NCBI GenBank assembly: GCA_902805985.1
Contig: CADCUW010000343.1
Location: 2,492-14,886 of the forward strand
Origin: an uncultured Rubrobacteraceae bacterium
GTDB taxonomy: Bacteria > Actinomycetota > Rubrobacteria > Rubrobacterales > Rubrobacteraceae
Direction: 5' to 3'
DNA: 12,395 bases
Every line of letters starts with the position of its first letter. Within the stretch, counting starts at the first letter, position 1. Position numbers and translations under genes: made by a program. Shown here piece by piece: positions 3,683 through 11,252 of this stretch. Below the pieces are notes generated by a model, which did no database searches, was not told the DNA's origin, and saw nothing but the letters and a program-made list of their open reading frames with translations.

Positions 3683-4030
3683 TTGAGAGGCCGCACTCCG
3701 GATACGAAACGAACCGAACCGCGCGGCGCTCGACGATCTTCCGGCGAGGTCGTCGTCCTGTTTCCCGCCGGCCGGGCGCGCCAGTCTCCCACACCCGAGC
3801 GGCTGGACGCGGTGCTCGCCGCGTTCCTCGTGGCAGACCGGCTGAGCCTCCGGCGCCTCAGGCTGCTCAGCGGTCTTCCGCACGAGCTCGTGGTCCGCTG
3901 CGTCGAGCGGCTCGCGGCCGACGGCCTGCTGGCAGCCGAACGCAGGCCCGACGGCAACGAGTCGCGCGGCATCGCCTCCCTCACGGACGAGGGCCGCCGA
4001 ACTCTCGAGCGGCTGGGGACGGCCGGCTGA
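3683..4030 (+). CDS. Small winged-helix-like DNA-binding protein
   Basis: 115 residues from TTG at 3683. The last 80 residues carry a helix (PTPERLDAVLAAFLVADR), a helix-turn-helix (LSLRRLRLLSGLPHELVVRC, then VERLAADGLLAAERR) and a wing followed by a last helix (ASLTDEGRRTLERLG), the layout of MarR/PadR-like winged-helix domains. The wing-plus-terminal-helix ending (x-L-T-x-x-G-R-x-x-L) resembles the two small paralogs at 500 and 1997. The frame is open from an ATG at 3587, but that start lacks a ribosome site and includes a strong hairpin; AAAGGGG nine bases before the TTG supports the later start. Stop and next start overlap (TGATG), so it is coupled to the coupling-protein gene and may autoregulate the operon; that is inference. 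Confidence 0.65.
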   Translation: MRGRTPDTKRTEPRGARRSSGEVVVLFPAGRARQSPTPERLDAVLAAFLVADRLSLRRLRLLSGLPHELVVRCVERLAADGLLAAERRPDGNESRGIASLTDEGRRTLERLGTAG

Positions 4031-5664
4031 TGGTCTTCCGGAAGCCGCCCACCCCTCCAGGCCTCGAGCGCCTGGAGGAACTGCCCAGGATCGCTGGTGA
4101 CGTGGCCGCCCACTGGCCCGAGTACCTGGAGGTCCTCCAGGACCCGTCCCTCTACGCCGCCATCGCCGGGTGCGCCGTCGCCGGGGTCGGGGCGGCCGCG
4201 GCCGGGAGGGCCGGGGCGCGCCACCTCTCCCGCCGGCCCGGGGACATCGTGCTGGGGCGCAGGATGGAGACGCGTCTGAACCGTTACCTGAAGGCCCCGG
4301 TCGTCGCTCGCTGGATCGACAGGACGCACCACACGGAGCTCGTCGGTCCGACCGGCTCCGGCAAGACCACCGCGCTCCTGCCCCAGGCGGTGCAGGACCT
4401 CCTCAACGGGCACACCGTCGCCGCCGTGGAGATCTACGGGGACTTCGGCACCAGCCTCATCCCCTACGCGATAGCCCTGGGGAGGCCCCTCTTCGTCTTC
4501 GACCCGTCCCTCGACGGCTCGCTCCGGTGGAATCCCCTCGCCGGCGAGGAGGACGAGGACGTCGTCGGCCACTTCGCCTCCGTCGTGGAGGGCCTCTTCG
4601 TGCACCACTTCTACAAGGCGTTCAACGGCGACGCCGCCCGCGCCTTCGCCCGCCTCGCCAGGGAGTACGCCCGAGAGCGCGGCGCCGAGGCGGACCTGGC
4701 GCTCTTCATGTTGCTGCTCTGCGACCGGGCCTTTCTCTACAAGGTGCTGCGGGTGAGGGTCGAGGGCTCGGGCCCGGACAAGACCGAGCGTGTAGGCGCG
4801 CCGTGGACCTCTCGCGAGACGAGGAGCTGGTTCGACTCGGCCTACCTCAGGTGGTCCGAGAAGCTCAGGGTGGACTACATGACGGACCTTCGGGTCTGGG
4901 TCACCAAGCTGCTCTCCAGGACGGCGGCCCGGCGCGCGCTGTGCCCCGGCCCGGGCGGGCTCACCCTCGACATGAGGGCGGCGCTCTCCACCCCCGGCGC
5001 GCTCGTGGTGGCCCGCTTCCCCGTGGAGGCCGTGGACGAGGAGCCGGCGCACGCGATGGCCCGCTTCGCCACCCGCACGATCCAGGACCTGACCCTCAGG
5101 CGCTTCTCGGACGCCCGGCTCTTCGGCCTGGCCGTCCCCCCGCTGGCGCTCTACCTGGACGAGCTGCCGACCCTCGTCGGCCGCGACCTGGGCGACGCGG
5201 TGAGCACGGCGCAGTGGATGGCGCTGGTCAGGAAGCAGCGCGTCGCGGTGACCGTCGCCCACCAGGGCGGCGTCCTGATAGGCGACGTGCTCTCGGGCGC
5301 CCTCGACACCAACGCCCTCACCAAACTCATCGCCCCGGGCCTCGGCGCCGACGACCTGCTCAAGGCGCAGCGCACCTTGGGCTTCGAGGAGAAGGAGGTC
5401 CACGACGAGCGCGTCACCGATCCCGGCCTGTTCGGCTCGGGCCACTACTCCCGCTCGCGCGGGACCCGCACGCACCGGGCGCCCCGCTTCGACGAGGACG
5501 AGCTCAAGTACTCGAGGGTCGGCAACTGGGCGCTCCTGCCCTACCGCGGCAAGGCGCAGCATCCCCCCGAGCGGCTCCGCATACGGCCCGTGCCGCCGCC
5601 CCAGGCCTTCGCCGAGGGATCCGCCGGGCGCTCCTGGCGCTGGCGAAGCCGGGGGGCGGCGTAG
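4030..5664 (+). CDS. VirD4/TraG-type type IV secretion coupling ATPase
   Basis: 544 residues. One membrane segment at about 41-59 (LYAAIAGCAVAGVGAAAAG), then a cytosolic P-loop ATPase: Walker A G106-PTGSGKT-T114 and Walker B LALYLDELPTL with D377-E378. Downstream DAVSTAQWMALVRKQRVAVT and VAHQ match the region following Walker B in TraG/VirD4 and TraD proteins, where the motor searches for substrate. The family hexamerises at the inner membrane, recruits the relaxase-DNA complex and drives transfer. The single N-terminal membrane helix is simpler than the two of VirD4. Start ATG overlaps the previous stop (TGATG), giving high confidence in the start. A 105-bp gap to the pilin gene follows. FtsK/TcpA-type motors are an alternative, but the LDELPTL Walker B and context favour TraG. 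Confidence 0.88.
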   Translation: MVFRKPPTPPGLERLEELPRIAGDVAAHWPEYLEVLQDPSLYAAIAGCAVAGVGAAAAGRAGARHLSRRPGDIVLGRRMETRLNRYLKAPVVARWIDRTHHTELVGPTGSGKTTALLPQAVQDLLNGHTVAAVEIYGDFGTSLIPYAIALGRPLFVFDPSLDGSLRWNPLAGEEDEDVVGHFASVVEGLFVHHFYKAFNGDAARAFARLAREYARERGAEADLALFMLLLCDRAFLYKVLRVRVEGSGPDKTERVGAPWTSRETRSWFDSAYLRWSEKLRVDYMTDLRVWVTKLLSRTAARRALCPGPGGLTLDMRAALSTPGALVVARFPVEAVDEEPAHAMARFATRTIQDLTLRRFSDARLFGLAVPPLALYLDELPTLVGRDLGDAVSTAQWMALVRKQRVAVTVAHQGGVLIGDVLSGALDTNALTKLIAPGLGADDLLKAQRTLGFEEKEVHDERVTDPGLFGSGHYSRSRGTRTHRAPRFDEDELKYSRVGNWALLPYRGKAQHPPERLRIRPVPPPQAFAEGSAGRSWRWRSRGAA

Positions 5665-5769: not shown

Positions 5770-6240
5770 GTGAGGACCAACGGAGAAGAGGAGAGGCTTA
5801 TGGAGACGATGGAGAGAGGCACGGGAGGCGCCGAGGCGTTCGCCGCGGAGCGTGCGACGTGGGCCAAGGTCGCGTGGTGGGCCGCAGCACTGGTCGCCGT
5901 CTCGGCCGCGGCGCTGCTCGTGTACGCCTACCCGGCCTTCGCCCAGGCCGGCGGGGAGAACATCGACACCTGCCAGGCCGGGGGCGGCGTCGGCGGCGAG
6001 GGCGGCCAGAAGATCCTGGGCGGCATCAGGAACATCGCCCTGTTCGGCGCGGCCCTGATCGGCGCCTCCGCGGTCCTCGGGCTGCTCGCGTGCGGCCTAA
6101 TGATCATCCTCGGCTCCGCCTCCAAGGACTGGCAGCGGCGCGGGTTCACGGGCCTCGCACTCTGCGCCGTCGGCATCTTCATCGCCCTCGGCGCCGCGTC
6201 GGTCTACGGAATCATCAGCTGGGCCATCTGCGGCGGTTAG
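5770..6240 (+). CDS. VirB2/TrbC-like pilin subunit
   Basis: 156 residues from GTG at 5770; an in-frame ATG at 5800 with GAGGAG upstream is an equally good start (146 residues). A long signal sequence (hydrophobic 33-52) ends YPAFA, with likely cleavage A58/Q59. The mature part of about 98 residues has a Gly-rich segment (GGGVGGEGGQ), then two hydrophobic helices (about 86-116 and 125-152) separated by the short basic loop SASKDWQRRG, the classical VirB2/TrbC hairpin topology. Position between the coupling protein and VirB4 is typical. It would build the conjugative pilus or surface channel. No sortase motif (LPxTG) is seen. C68, C108, C132 and C154 are unusual for pilins and might form disulfides. 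Confidence 0.8.
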   Translation: MRTNGEEERLMETMERGTGGAEAFAAERATWAKVAWWAAALVAVSAAALLVYAYPAFAQAGGENIDTCQAGGGVGGEGGQKILGGIRNIALFGAALIGASAVLGLLACGLMIILGSASKDWQRRGFTGLALCAVGIFIALGAASVYGIISWAICGG

Positions 6241-6322: not shown

Positions 6323-9300
6323 GTGTCGCAAGACCACAGGATGTTGGAGGCGCTCTCCACGGAGCGGAAGCTCGTCGGCTTCTGGATCTTCTCGCTCACC
6401 GTGCGCCAGTTCGTCATCCTCGCCGGGCCGTCCATGGCGTGCATGATGTTCTTCACCCTCGTGCCCTTCTTCGGCGGCGTCAACGTCTGGGCCGCGCTCG
6501 CCTTCTTCGTGCCCCTGATCTTGGGCTCGGGCGTCCTGGCCTTCGGCAGGTGGGAGGAGCGGACCCTCGACTGGCACCTCTGGCGCTGGTGGATAGGCGT
6601 GCGCAACCCCCAGGTTCTCATGTGGCGCCACCGCCCGCCCTGGATGCCCGAGGACCACGACGACGTCCGCGACTCCGTCCAGGCGTACCTGCCTCAGGCC
6701 GCCGTCGGCTCCCCGCTCGCCCGCTCCACGGACGGCACGCGCTACCTGGTGCTGAAAGCCTTCAGGCAGCCGAGCGTCTCTTTGGCGGGCAAGCGGGACA
6801 AGGACCGCCTCTGGGCCCGCTCGAAGGACATGCTCGACGCCCTGGACTTCGACATAGTGGAGATCCTGGATTCCCGGGAGGGCCACGTCACCACCTACGC
6901 CGAGACCCTGCGCGAGCGCCTCGCCAGAACCCTGACCTACGACCAGCAGAAGCTCATCACGTTCGCGAGGCAGCACCTCCGGCACGTCGAGGAGGTCGTC
7001 GAGGGCGGCAACGTGTACGAGAGGATCGGCTACGTCGTCCTCCCGTACAACCCCCGCCGCGAGGACGAGGAGCAAGCCTCCGGCGCCACGGCCGCGCTCG
7101 TGGAGGCGCTCGTCAAACCCCTCAAGAAGCTGCTGGGGCGCGACCACCCTACGCCTGAGGACGCGGCGGCCCTCCAGGAAGAGGAGGAGGTCGCCCAGGC
7201 GGTCCTGACGGAGAGGGCGCGCCTCGTGGACGAGCTCTACTCCGGCATGGGCGTCTCCCTGCGCTGGCTCATGGGCCCGGAGCTCGTCGCCTTTCTGCGC
7301 GGCCAGGCCACGGACGAGCCCGAGGGGGCGCCCGAGGACCCCGATGACCAGATCGTCCGCCACGACGGGGGCGACTACGAGCGGGTCCCCGAGCACAAGA
7401 GGCCCGCGATCCACGCCGCCGCCAGGGCGGCCCAGGAGCGCGCGCCCCTCGCGCCGGCCTCGGGCTTCCTGACGCTGCCGGACCTCATCGCCCCGGACTG
7501 CGTGGAGGTCGAGGACGACTACATCAAGGTGGGGGACACCTACCGCACCTACGTCATGGTGTGGGACTGGCCGAAGAAGGTGAAGTTCCCGCAGCTGGGG
7601 CCCCTGGCGACGATGCGCGGGCAGATAAAGGTCGTCAAGTACGTGAGGCCGATCCCCGAGGACGCCGCCCTGGACCTCTGGGGCAAGGAGCTGGCGCGGC
7701 TGGCCGCCGGCGAGCAGACGGCCAAGACCGGCCACGTTATCGAGGTCAAGAAGCGCAAGAGCGCCGCCGAGCAGGCCGAGGCCGGCGTGGACGAGCTGGT
7801 GGAGGGCAAGCAGCGCTACCTCGAGGTCTCGCTCTACGTCGAGATCCAGGCCCGCACCTTGGGCGAGCTCAGGAACCTCCGCAAGAACGTCGAGACGAAG
7901 CTCAAGGGCGCGAAGGCCAAGCCCATGCTGGCCCGCAAGGAGATGTGGGAGGCCTACGTCTCGTGTTTGCCGGTCAGCGACGACCGGCTGACGAAGCGAT
8001 ACGCCAGGAAGGGCTTCATGAGCGAGCCCCTGGCGGACTTCCAGCTCTTCGTGAGCCACCAGGTCAACCACGAGACCGGGGTGTTCTTAGGCACCGACCC
8101 CGAGAACCACCATCCCGTAACGCTGGACACCCGGCTGCTGCTGAACCCCCACGTCATCATCTTAGGTGTCCCCGGCGCCGGCAAGACGTTCCTCATGAAG
8201 ATCTGGCAGACGCGGGTGCGGTGCCAGGACGAGTTCGTCGCCGTCATAGACCCCCGCGGCAACTCCGGCTACCAGCGCGTGGCGACCGCCATGAACGGCC
8301 TCTACATACCGTTCGGCATCGGGAGCGACAAGCACATAAACCCCTGGGACATAAAGGGCTACCTGAACCTGGAGCTCTTGCGGGCGCTCGCCGGCGACGA
8401 CGTCGAGGGCCTGGACGGGGAGCGCGTCGCCTGGGCGAGGAGGAAGGCCCGCGAGGCGGCCTTCGACGGAAAGGTGAACTCTTTGCGGCGCCTGCTCTCG
8501 ATCATGAGCCAGGGCGAGGCCGGCGACGGGATGCTCGACTCCGAGGAGGAGGGCGAGGCGGACAACCTCATCCGCCTGACCTACTACGGCAAGGGGATCA
8601 ACGAGGACCCCTCAACCCACGACGATAACGAGCCCCCGACCTTCGAGGACTTCTTCGGGACCTTCGCCGCCGAGATCGTCCGGCGCGAGGAGGGGGGCGA
8701 CGCCGAGGGCGCCAGGCGCCTGAAGAAGATGCGGGCCCGCCTGAGGCTCTGGGAGACGGGTTCCTTGCGGACCCTCTTCGGCCGCACCAACGTGAAGCTC
8801 GACAACAAGTACTGCGTCTTCCACCTGGGGCGCCTGGAGGGCCGGGAGAAGGGGGCGATGTACTTCGCCCTGCAGGACTTCCTGATCCCCAGGCTCTCCG
8901 ACCCCTCAGAGCCCACCAACCTCTTCGACGACGAGATGTGGGACATCGTCTCGTTCCCGATCGCCGCCCAGGCCCACATGGAGCAATACAGGACGGGGAG
9001 GGCCCGCAACAACCGCATGGTGGGCGCCAGCCAGGACGTCGAGGAGTTCCTGGCCTCCAAGGACGGGCGCACCATCCTCGCGCTGCCGCAGACGAAGATC
9101 GCCATGCAGCTCCCGCGCAACCCGGTGGAGCAGTTCGCGAGGTACGTGGACATCTCCGACGACCAGAAGGAGGCCATAGGCGCCCTGCCCCAGGGTCAGG
9201 CCCACCTCGTCGTCGGCAACAACCAGGTCCCTTTGAAGGTCGAGGCCTCCGAGTACGAGAAGCGCCTCTTCAACACCGACCCGACGAAGGAGAGGGAGTA

Positions 9301-10291
9301 CCGGCGCAAGGAGGCCGCCCGCGGCATCCGCGGCCCGATAGAGGTCCTGGAGCGCGCCGGCTTCGCCCGCGGCGACGGCTCCGACCCGCTGGAGGACGAA
9401 GTGGGCGGAGCCGGCCGCAAGCGCCTGACGGACGCCGGCAGGATGCGCCGCCTGCTCGCACCGGACGCCGATGGGGCCGCCCCGCGCCCGGACGACTACG
9501 AGGACGTGCCGGAGGAGGAGCTACTCCCCGAGCTCCCGAAGGACTCGCTGCTCCCCGAGCGCCCCGAGGGGGAGGAGGCGCCGCTGGTGGCCGTCGCCGG
9601 GCCCTCCGCCGGGCTTGTCGCCTTCAATCTCGCCGGCTTTTTGGCGGAGGACGCCAAGGAGCACGGGCGCAAGGTCCTCTTCGTGGACGCCGACGGGTAC
9701 GCGAGCACGCGCCTTTTGGCCCGCGCCGCCCACGAGGCCGGGATAGCGCCGCCGGGCGCCGCCTGCGTCGCGCATGGCAGGTTCGCACGCTCGACGACAC
9801 TTACGGAGCACTCGACGGGCCTGGAGGTCCTCCTCGCGCCCGAAGACGACGACCTGGAGGCCTACCCCATCGTCCGCGCCGCGCGCGGCTCGGACTACGA
9901 CCTCGTCGTCGTGGCCTGCGGCCGGTCCACCTACGCCTCCCAGTGGCTCGCCGAGTCCGACCGCGCCGTGGTCGCGGGCTCCGGCTACCTGCACGACAAC
10001 GTGATCCGGGCCGAGGACGCCAGGGGGATGGACGGCACGCTCGTCGTCGCCATGGGCTCCTGCGAGCTCCCCGACTCGCTCGTGGGCCGGACGGTCCTCA
10101 GGATGCCGGCCCAGAACTCCGAGGCCTTTAAGGAGGCCGAGCGACGCGAGATCTTCGCGGCTGTCATAGACGAAGACGTAGGCGCCGCCACCGGCGAGCT
10201 CGCCCGCGGGCTCATGCTCGCGGGAGCCGAGGCTGGGCCCGGGACCGGGACGGACGCCGGCGCTGGCGCTGGCGACGGCGGCCTGGCATGA
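6323..10291 (+). CDS. PrgI-VirB4 ATPase fusion with C-terminal degenerate ParA/MinD-like domain
   Basis: 1322 residues; VirB4 proteins are usually 600-900. Start GTG with AGGAAGGGG eight bases upstream. Order: (1) residues 1-110, PrgI-like, two membrane helices (about 27-50, 54-75) then a Trp-rich stretch (DWHLWRWWIGVRNPQ); (2) about 120-370, a region resembling the N-terminal domain of VirB4/TraC-like proteins; (3) about 385-1030, VirB4 proper, with LIAPDCVEVEDDYIKVGDTY, Walker A G615-VPGAGKT-F623 and Walker B NLFDDEMWDIV (D870, E871); (4) acidic linker, about 1030-1085; (5) 1087-1300, ParA/MinD-like. In part 5 the P-loop is GPSAGLVAFNLA (1093-1104) without lysine, VLFVDAD (1118-1124) is kept, and DYDLVVVACG (1191-1200) lacks the Walker B Asp. 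VirB4 powers pilus assembly and transfer at the inner membrane; the tail is probably non-catalytic. Confidence 0.85.
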   Translation: MSQDHRMLEALSTERKLVGFWIFSLTVRQFVILAGPSMACMMFFTLVPFFGGVNVWAALAFFVPLILGSGVLAFGRWEERTLDWHLWRWWIGVRNPQVLMWRHRPPWMPEDHDDVRDSVQAYLPQAAVGSPLARSTDGTRYLVLKAFRQPSVSLAGKRDKDRLWARSKDMLDALDFDIVEILDSREGHVTTYAETLRERLARTLTYDQQKLITFARQHLRHVEEVVEGGNVYERIGYVVLPYNPRREDEEQASGATAALVEALVKPLKKLLGRDHPTPEDAAALQEEEEVAQAVLTERARLVDELYSGMGVSLRWLMGPELVAFLRGQATDEPEGAPEDPDDQIVRHDGGDYERVPEHKRPAIHAAARAAQERAPLAPASGFLTLPDLIAPDCVEVEDDYIKVGDTYRTYVMVWDWPKKVKFPQLGPLATMRGQIKVVKYVRPIPEDAALDLWGKELARLAAGEQTAKTGHVIEVKKRKSAAEQAEAGVDELVEGKQRYLEVSLYVEIQARTLGELRNLRKNVETKLKGAKAKPMLARKEMWEAYVSCLPVSDDRLTKRYARKGFMSEPLADFQLFVSHQVNHETGVFLGTDPENHHPVTLDTRLLLNPHVIILGVPGAGKTFLMKIWQTRVRCQDEFVAVIDPRGNSGYQRVATAMNGLYIPFGIGSDKHINPWDIKGYLNLELLRALAGDDVEGLDGERVAWARRKAREAAFDGKVNSLRRLLSIMSQGEAGDGMLDSEEEGEADNLIRLTYYGKGINEDPSTHDDNEPPTFEDFFGTFAAEIVRREEGGDAEGARRLKKMRARLRLWETGSLRTLFGRTNVKLDNKYCVFHLGRLEGREKGAMYFALQDFLIPRLSDPSEPTNLFDDEMWDIVSFPIAAQAHMEQYRTGRARNNRMVGASQDVEEFLASKDGRTILALPQTKIAMQLPRNPVEQFARYVDISDDQKEAIGALPQGQAHLVVGNNQVPLKVEASEYEKRLFNTDPTKEREYRRKEAARGIRGPIEVLERAGFARGDGSDPLEDEVGGAGRKRLTDAGRMRRLLAPDADGAAPRPDDYEDVPEEELLPELPKDSLLPERPEGEEAPLVAVAGPSAGLVAFNLAGFLAEDAKEHGRKVLFVDADGYASTRLLARAAHEAGIAPPGAACVAHGRFARSTTLTEHSTGLEVLLAPEDDDLEAYPIVRAARGSDYDLVVVACGRSTYASQWLAESDRAVVAGSGYLHDNVIRAEDARGMDGTLVVAMGSCELPDSLVGRTVLRMPAQNSEAFKEAERREIFAAVIDEDVGAATGELARGLMLAGAEAGPGTGTDAGAGAGDGGLA

Positions 10292-10349: not shown

Positions 10350-11252
10350 TTGACCGAGAGGCGAGGGGGGCAGTGGACGAGCCCCGAGAAGCAGGCCGAC
10401 GAGGAGTACCAGCGGAAGATGAAGGACTTCTTCGCGCCCGGCGGCGCCGGCGTGCGGGGCCCGCTGAAGGACGACACCACCGTCATACCGTCGATCGGCG
10501 CGAACGGCGAGCCGGGCGGCGCCCAGAACGGGCACGCCGCGGCACCCGCGTCCGCCGCCATCCCCGGCCCCCGCCGCCCGCCCCTCGGCAGGCTGCTCCT
10601 GGCGGGGGTCCTCGTCCCCGTCGGGGTCCTCTTCGTCGTCCTTCTTGCCTGGCTCGTGTTCGGCCGCGGCGGGGGCGAGGGGCGGGCGGCCGAGCGCGCC
10701 CCCGTCGCCGCCGGCGCCGCGGCGCCGGCGATCGAGGAGACCAACCAGGTCTTCGAGGCCGTGGACGGCGAGGGGGAGGCCTACGCCGTCCGGCTCGGCG
10801 AGTACGAGTGGGAGGGCACCGAGGCGATGAACGGCGACGTCGAGGAGGTCGTGCTGGAGGGCAGGACCGCCGCCCACTTCACCACCGCCGTCCGCCTGGC
10901 CGACGGGGAGATCCAGACCGGCGTCTTCGGCCGGGCCGAGCCGGGACGGCCGATGTGGCACGCCACCTTCCAGCGCACCACGACCGGCGGCCAGCAGACC
11001 ACGGCCGGCACCTACACCGTCGTGGAGGACGAGACGGTCGTCCTCGAGGGCGCCTACACCGACCGCGTGGTCGAGGACAACCCCGAGGGCGAGCCCGACC
11101 GGGTCGTGCGCGAGTACGTCGAGGGCGACCCGGCCGCCGGCGGCGAGGACGTCGAGCGCTTCCGCGTCTCTTTTGAGGCCGAGGAGGGCGTCGAGCTCCC
11201 CTGGCTGCCCGGGCACCCGGTCGCCGAGACCAACGAGGGGGAGGCGCAATGA
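10350..11252 (+). CDS. Single-pass membrane protein of the transfer operon
   Basis: 300 residues from TTG, with AAAGGAGGT eight bases upstream. Cytosolic N-terminus of about 78 residues (SPEKQADEEYQRKMKDFFAP, then a Gly/Ala/Pro-rich linker), a membrane helix at about 81-105 (LLLAGVLVPVGVLFVVLLAW), and an outside domain of about 190 residues, acidic and rich in beta-like alternation (VVLEGRTAAHFTTAVRLADG, TTAGTYTVVEDETVVLEG). This topology (short N-in, one helix, extracytoplasmic beta domain) and its place after VirB4 fit the scaffold role played by VirB8 or TcpC, but I see no diagnostic motif of either, so the assignment is by position only. The stop overlaps the next ATG (ATGA). Confidence 0.72.
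   Translation: MTERRGGQWTSPEKQADEEYQRKMKDFFAPGGAGVRGPLKDDTTVIPSIGANGEPGGAQNGHAAAPASAAIPGPRRPPLGRLLLAGVLVPVGVLFVVLLAWLVFGRGGGEGRAAERAPVAAGAAAPAIEETNQVFEAVDGEGEAYAVRLGEYEWEGTEAMNGDVEEVVLEGRTAAHFTTAVRLADGEIQTGVFGRAEPGRPMWHATFQRTTTGGQQTTAGTYTVVEDETVVLEGAYTDRVVEDNPEGEPDRVVREYVEGDPAAGGEDVERFRVSFEAEEGVELPWLPGHPVAETNEGEAQ

Follow-up and report, generated by a model that had tools for sequence, protein, structure and literature searches.

The protein encoded by the forward-strand frame 6323–10291 is a VirB4 of a conjugative-type T4SS in Rubrobacteria with a C-terminal pseudo-ParA/MinD domain that follows a variable linker. The presence of a worn-down ParA/MinD fold on the end of VirB4 suggests that the conjugation machine has its docking or positioning part built in. 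The window, the whole stretch of 12 395 nucleotides analysed here, comprises positions 2492–14886 of contig C343 of a 4.2 Mb genome in 707 contigs, the nearest named relatives of which are Rubrobacter. The ParA/MinD fold is used by other bacteria to place structures inside the cell, and to our knowledge little is understood of what determines where T4SS machines sit in Gram-positive cells. By being fused to the core ATPase, a domain of the positioning class offers a removable handle on T4SS placement and DNA transfer, and it brings together, within one lineage, conjugation, plasmid ParA proteins and pseudo-ParA domains.

The VirB4 core, its operon and the tail domain

The frame encodes a single protein of 1322 residues, and its identification as VirB4 by the initial annotation is borne out by profile matches, by intact Walker motifs and by the surrounding T4SS operon. 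The NCBIfam model of the CD1110-family VirB4-like ATPases matches residues 384–974 (E 1.9e-45, bit score below the curated cut-off), and further matches were obtained with the Mbov_0397-type VirB4 (6.1e-24), VirB4_CagE (1.4e-10) and TraC (1.6e-9) models; because all of these lie under their curated cut-offs, the assignment is made at the family level only. The Walker A motif GVPGAGKT (residues 615–622, 8165–8188, forward strand, as are all window features below) and the Walker B region LFDDE (residues 867–871, 8921–8935) of the core are intact, with Gly618, Gly620 and Lys621 of the former and Asp870 and Glu871 of the latter invariant in 14 aligned sequences. The segment joining the core to the tail (approximately residues 986–1085, 9278–9577), which was delimited from alignment gaps, model confidence and dN/dS, shows long gaps in the alignment and low-confidence stretches in a 762-residue model, and is probably flexible.

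A VirB2/TrbC-like pilin gene (5770–6240; PF04956, E 0.0037, below the cut-off) lies just 5′ of virB4, and a gene annotated 'pilin' occupies the matching place in the R. tropicus plasmid. The frame at 4021–5664, the start of which is not settled, encodes a P-loop protein with weak P-loop/TrwB matches only; it is probably the VirD4-type coupling protein, and its position is that of the T4SS DNA-binding-domain gene in the R. tropicus plasmid, where this gene is followed by the pilin gene and then by virB4. The pilin and coupling-protein operon is weak by the window's own matches and clear by this shared gene order. On the 3′ side of virB4, a 300-residue protein with one apparent membrane helix by eye and no family match (10350–11252) is possibly, as a guess, VirB8-like. 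Apart from the weak CpaE match of the tail itself, no Tad match was found among the scanned window proteins. The window genome (G000) carries a second tailed VirB4 on contig C577 (locus L024, 3475–7893), the core and tail of which are 88% and 73% identical, respectively, to those of the R. tropicus plasmid VirB4, and the genome therefore seems to hold two T4SS elements. In the relative G011, the T4SS operon (L030, 4024–6331 and 1776–3545) continues, by eye, with genes for a transglycosylase-like protein whose end carries a HEIGHALGFEH motif resembling that of metalloproteases, for a membrane protein with one helix and for a CAP-like protein.

The tail domain spans approximately residues 1086–1302 (9578–10228), and its overall fold in the predicted structure is that of the ParA/MinD (deviant Walker A) class; the fold class claimed by the initial annotation was thus recovered, and not an unrelated one. 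The domain folds again beyond the low-confidence stretches in the longer, 762-residue model, the mean pLDDT of 64.3 and pTM of 0.40 of which are such that domain packing is not claimed. A sequence search of solved structures returned chance matches only. At the P-loop position, sequence reading identifies the shortened and lysine-less AGPSAGLV (residues 1092–1099, 9596–9619); KGGxGKT/S with its signature and P-loop lysines is absent, and the first 20 residues are free of lysine in all 16 tails. The Walker B position, DYDLVVVACG (residues 1191–1200, 9893–9922), was set by eye against YDLVVYDLG of a canonical ParA half encoded on contig C659 of the same genome; Ala1198 stands instead of aspartate, and by eye all 16 tails have Ala, Val or Pro at this place. 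The VDAD motif (residues 1121–1124, 9683–9694) is present, with Val1121, Asp1122 and Ala1123 invariant in 14 sequences. The lost lysines, the substituted Walker B aspartate and the retained VDAD had all been claimed from the window alone, and each holds among the relatives, for VDAD as far as its first three residues. Nine aligned tails share 13 invariant columns, with no lysine or arginine among them, and VDA and a YAxxW motif are invariant although the tails are only 25–34% identical to that of the window. The protein closes with an Ala/Gly/Asp-rich end and the stop codon (10229–10291), where model segments 221–232 and 238–240 fall below a pLDDT of 50. We are highly confident that the tail combines a ParA/MinD fold with a degenerate nucleotide site.

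Conservation and distribution of the fusion

With the whole protein as the query, nine of 60 relatives' genomes had matches, those in G048 and G059 being distant and partial only, and a search of 39 genomes of the class with P0009 as the query matched eight, in two of which (G008 and G306) all copies are cut by contig ends. The tail is kept in every untruncated genomic VirB4 copy (nine copies in six genomes) and in all seven further database relatives that extend to the C-terminus (P0002–P0006, P0008 and P0009). This count leaves out the window's own entry (P0001), P0007 (N-terminal part only), copies running off contig ends (G008 C634, G306 C173 and C61, and loci L036 and L037), the partial matches of G048 and G059, and the fragments P0010–P0012, of which P0010 and P0011 were used in the lysine check only; G306 C61 retains the first tail residues before its contig ends. 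Tailed VirB4 proteins are encoded on the complete plasmids NZ_CP045122.1 (R. marinus) and NZ_CP045120.1 (R. tropicus) and also on the complete R. marinus chromosome NZ_CP045121.1, and the recurrence of the in-frame fusion in these records excludes a frameshift. The survey of homologs suggested by the initial annotation therefore found a conserved fusion, and neither absence of the tail nor a frameshift.

In three pairs of relatives, dN/dS values (Nei–Gojobori, without error bars) were 0.27, 0.30 and 0.30 for the tail, 0.08, 0.16 and 0.24 for the VirB4 core and 0.63, 0.39 and 0.69 for the 60 residues before the tail. The tail is under purifying selection, with a constraint weaker than that of the core and stronger than that of the linker.

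No tailed VirB4 was found outside Rubrobacteria in plasmid, viral-contig, 296-genome and protein searches, the last of which scored the 8000 candidates sharing most words. When 72 556 plasmid records were searched by tblastn with the tail (E ≤ 0.01), only the two Rubrobacter plasmids matched, and scanning viral contigs brought up no relative. Among 661 plasmid records that match VirB4, the 18 non-Rubrobacter records among the matches listed all end by query residue 987. Over 296 genomes of the phylum (at most nine candidates scored per genome), the tail profile found VirB4 tails in six genomes, which belong to a single family; nine further genomes had weak matches (E 1.2e-6 to 7.9e-4). The proteins of four of these nine were read: by eye, three look like CpaE/MinD and have a receiver-like part in front, the two of them that were scanned matching TIGR03815 (E 2.6e-18 and 3.1e-22), and the fourth matches BcsQ, BagA and ParA models. 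Three candidates for a stand-alone tail protein (356, 253 and 129 residues) were rejected, as they read as VirB4 pieces from short contigs. No description of a VirB4 with such a tail was found in the excerpts of open-licence literature available, which is weak evidence of absence.

ParA proteins related to the tail or encoded in T4SS operons

A profile built from the 16 tails and searched against 2340 ORFs of the loci matches the N-terminal half of a 600-residue R. tropicus plasmid protein (WP_166180760.1, annotated hypothetical; L054, 12717–14519) with E values of 1.6e-19 for the whole sequence and 2.5e-13 for the domain (i-E), and that of its counterpart on C659 of the window's own genome (L002, 1468–3234) with values of 1.8e-18 and 1e-11. 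Both N-halves, like the tail, lack the P-loop lysine; the C-halves are canonical ParA domains with KGGVGKSS and are matched more weakly by the profile (0.0028 and 1.8e-4). The matches to the N-halves therefore place one pseudo-ParA module both on VirB4 and on a live ParA. In R. tropicus the doubled protein and virB4 lie on one plasmid, approximately 55 kb apart, and in both genomes the doubled protein sits after a PASTA-domain gene, which in R. tropicus is annotated as a Ser/Thr kinase. G011 has a canonical ParA gene immediately after virB4 on the same strand, and the product of this gene is, over its own ParA domain, 57–58% identical to the C659 protein. A partner ParA is not universal among genomes with tailed VirB4: G030 (two contigs, two tailed VirB4) has no C659-type ParA match at E ≤ 0.01, and G012, G024 and G306 have only weak ones. 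On the window's contig, the tail profile picked up the tail itself and no further ParA-like ORF.

Searching with the doubled protein also brought up a Clavibacter plasmid with the order SCO6880-family gene, ATP-binding gene (a weak VirB4-like match, E 0.0085) and MinD/ParA gene. Sixteen SCO6880-type plasmid loci were examined, namely that of Clavibacter and 15 chosen from the 40 listed of 368 records, and a profile built from six T4SS-linked ParA domains matches a gene in seven of them, three of the seven being its own seeds. The ParA-like gene directly follows the ATP-binding gene in Clavibacter and occupies the same place in Curtobacterium; it lies upstream in three Arthrobacter operons, the two read having a variant KGGxNKTP loop, and upstream in two Rhodococcus operons. 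These separate Rhodococcus genes lack the P-loop lysine (L096, 4214–5161, i-E 2.4e-8; L098, 4599–5375, 4.1e-9). There was no match to the ParA profile in the other nine loci (L089–L091, L094, L097 and L099–L102), of which at least two (L089 and L094) end near the likely place; the profile did not pick up a protein of L097 that is annotated as ParA family and is therefore not a complete detector, and its matches include two MinD/ParA-type frames of a type VII secretion cluster (L087), so that it is not specific for T4SS. The tail profile left the separate ParA proteins of the Clavibacter and Arthrobacter T4SS operons unmatched (E 0.1 to 2.3), and its best E value among 1529 ORFs of 17 plasmid stretches was 0.35; the link between the tail and the T4SS ParA proteins accordingly rests on gene context and on the shared fold class. 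The sequences do not support a direct descent of the tail from the separate ParA genes found in T4SS operons of other Actinobacteria. DUF6668 proteins also occur in actinobacterial T4SS-type operons (L095, 6827–7414; L096, 5164–5802), and that of L095, with a P-loop-like stretch without lysine by eye, is perhaps another degenerate ParA-like protein.

Possible roles of the tail and comparison with known systems

TadZ/CpaE are thought to mark the sites of Tad pili. The tail would no longer cycle ATP and, by analogy with these proteins and with VirC1, which brings the relaxosome to the T4SS, would serve as a fixed docking surface by which VirB4, the cytoplasmic ATPase of the machine, is placed at, or tied to, some partner belonging to the ParA/MinD class of positioning factors; candidate partners are a ParA encoded by the plasmid or the host, a pole and the relaxosome. 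Docking or positioning is the role that we tentatively favour, at a little under an even chance. The term 'non-catalytic' stays an inference because, according to excerpts of PMC10482377, ATPase activity is reported for E. rectale TadZ, which has lost both conserved P-loop lysines, with a lysine from an adjacent helix assisting. In A. tumefaciens, GFP-VirB4 is polar and has a localization region at the C-terminal residues 592–789, in the available text of PMC4234268, which also records that this polar location is disputed. A broader reading is that actinobacterial conjugation machines use a dedicated ParA/MinD positioning module, the Rubrobacteria tail being a dead copy that pairs with a plasmid ParA whose own N-half is the same pseudo-ParA, so that the live ParA would place or tether the machine relative to the nucleoid or a pole; we regard this generalization as doubtful.

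That the tail instead binds the relaxosome or the coupling protein and helps to feed DNA, with no cell-site role, is unlikely: the ParA-like VirC1 does join the relaxase and VirD4 (excerpts of PMC4949242) and the virB4 operon has a gene for a probable coupling protein, but VirC1 belongs to the deviant Walker A class and is encoded separately. ParA/MinD-class recruitment of this kind aside, the tail might merely aid VirB4 oligomerization or solubility. ParA/MinD folds often dimerize; such a structural part, however, would leave the same module on a plasmid ParA unexplained, and we consider it distinctly improbable. Similarly improbable is a nucleotide switch that still binds or slowly hydrolyses nucleotide through a non-canonical site, for which the reported activity of the lysine-less E. 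rectale TadZ (PMC10482377, in part) and the invariant VDA speak, whereas the P-loop is shortened as well, the invariant columns hold no lysine or arginine and the Walker B aspartate is missing throughout by eye. A functionless, decaying remnant of a fused ParA gene would be in keeping with the faster evolution of the tail than of the core in all three pairs, but its dN/dS is well below 1, it is present in every untruncated copy and VDA and YAxxW persist in tails with 25–34% identity to that of the window, which makes a relic very improbable. Fusion of a neighbouring gene by frameshift or misassembly, conceivable in so fragmented an assembly, is ruled out because the same in-frame fusion occurs in complete records, namely the plasmid and the chromosome of R. 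marinus and the plasmid of R. tropicus.

Compared with known systems, the window protein shares with the VirB4/TraC T4SS ATPases of the CD1110-family branch the intact Walker A/B core and an operon with pilin and coupling protein, and differs from them by approximately 240 extra residues forming the ParA/MinD fold. The resemblance to TadZ/CpaE proposed by the initial annotation stands in part: like these proteins and actinobacterial Ssd (TIGR03815), the tail is a ParA/MinD domain of atypical kind that goes with a pilus or secretion system. No name-bearing model comes close to it; TIGR03815 is the best NCBIfam match of the window tail (E 0.0055), matching only three of the eight tails or VirB4 proteins scanned (E 0.0055, 6.4e-4 and 0.0087), with its 154-bit cut-off not reached. 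Membership does not stand, as the tail is preceded by a variable linker and the VirB4 core instead of a receiver-like N-terminal domain, is not a separate protein and is surrounded by T4SS-type genes rather than a Tad pilus locus. The tail is not a ParA/MinD ATPase by motifs, nor a TadZ/CpaE member by architecture or locus, although it may work like one. VirC1 of Agrobacterium, which is ParA-like and links the relaxosome, VirD4 and the pole, and the MinD/ParA genes common in archaeal Ted loci also associate a ParA/MinD-class protein with T4SS-type DNA transfer (excerpts of PMC4949242 and PMC9905601); these are separate proteins, whereas the Rubrobacter tail is a degenerate domain fused to VirB4. 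The closest parallel in sequence is WP_166180760.1, the N-half of which is homologous to the tail and likewise lacks the P-loop lysine, with the difference that its pseudo-ParA is fused to a canonical ParA rather than to VirB4 and is encoded beside a PASTA Ser/Thr kinase gene.
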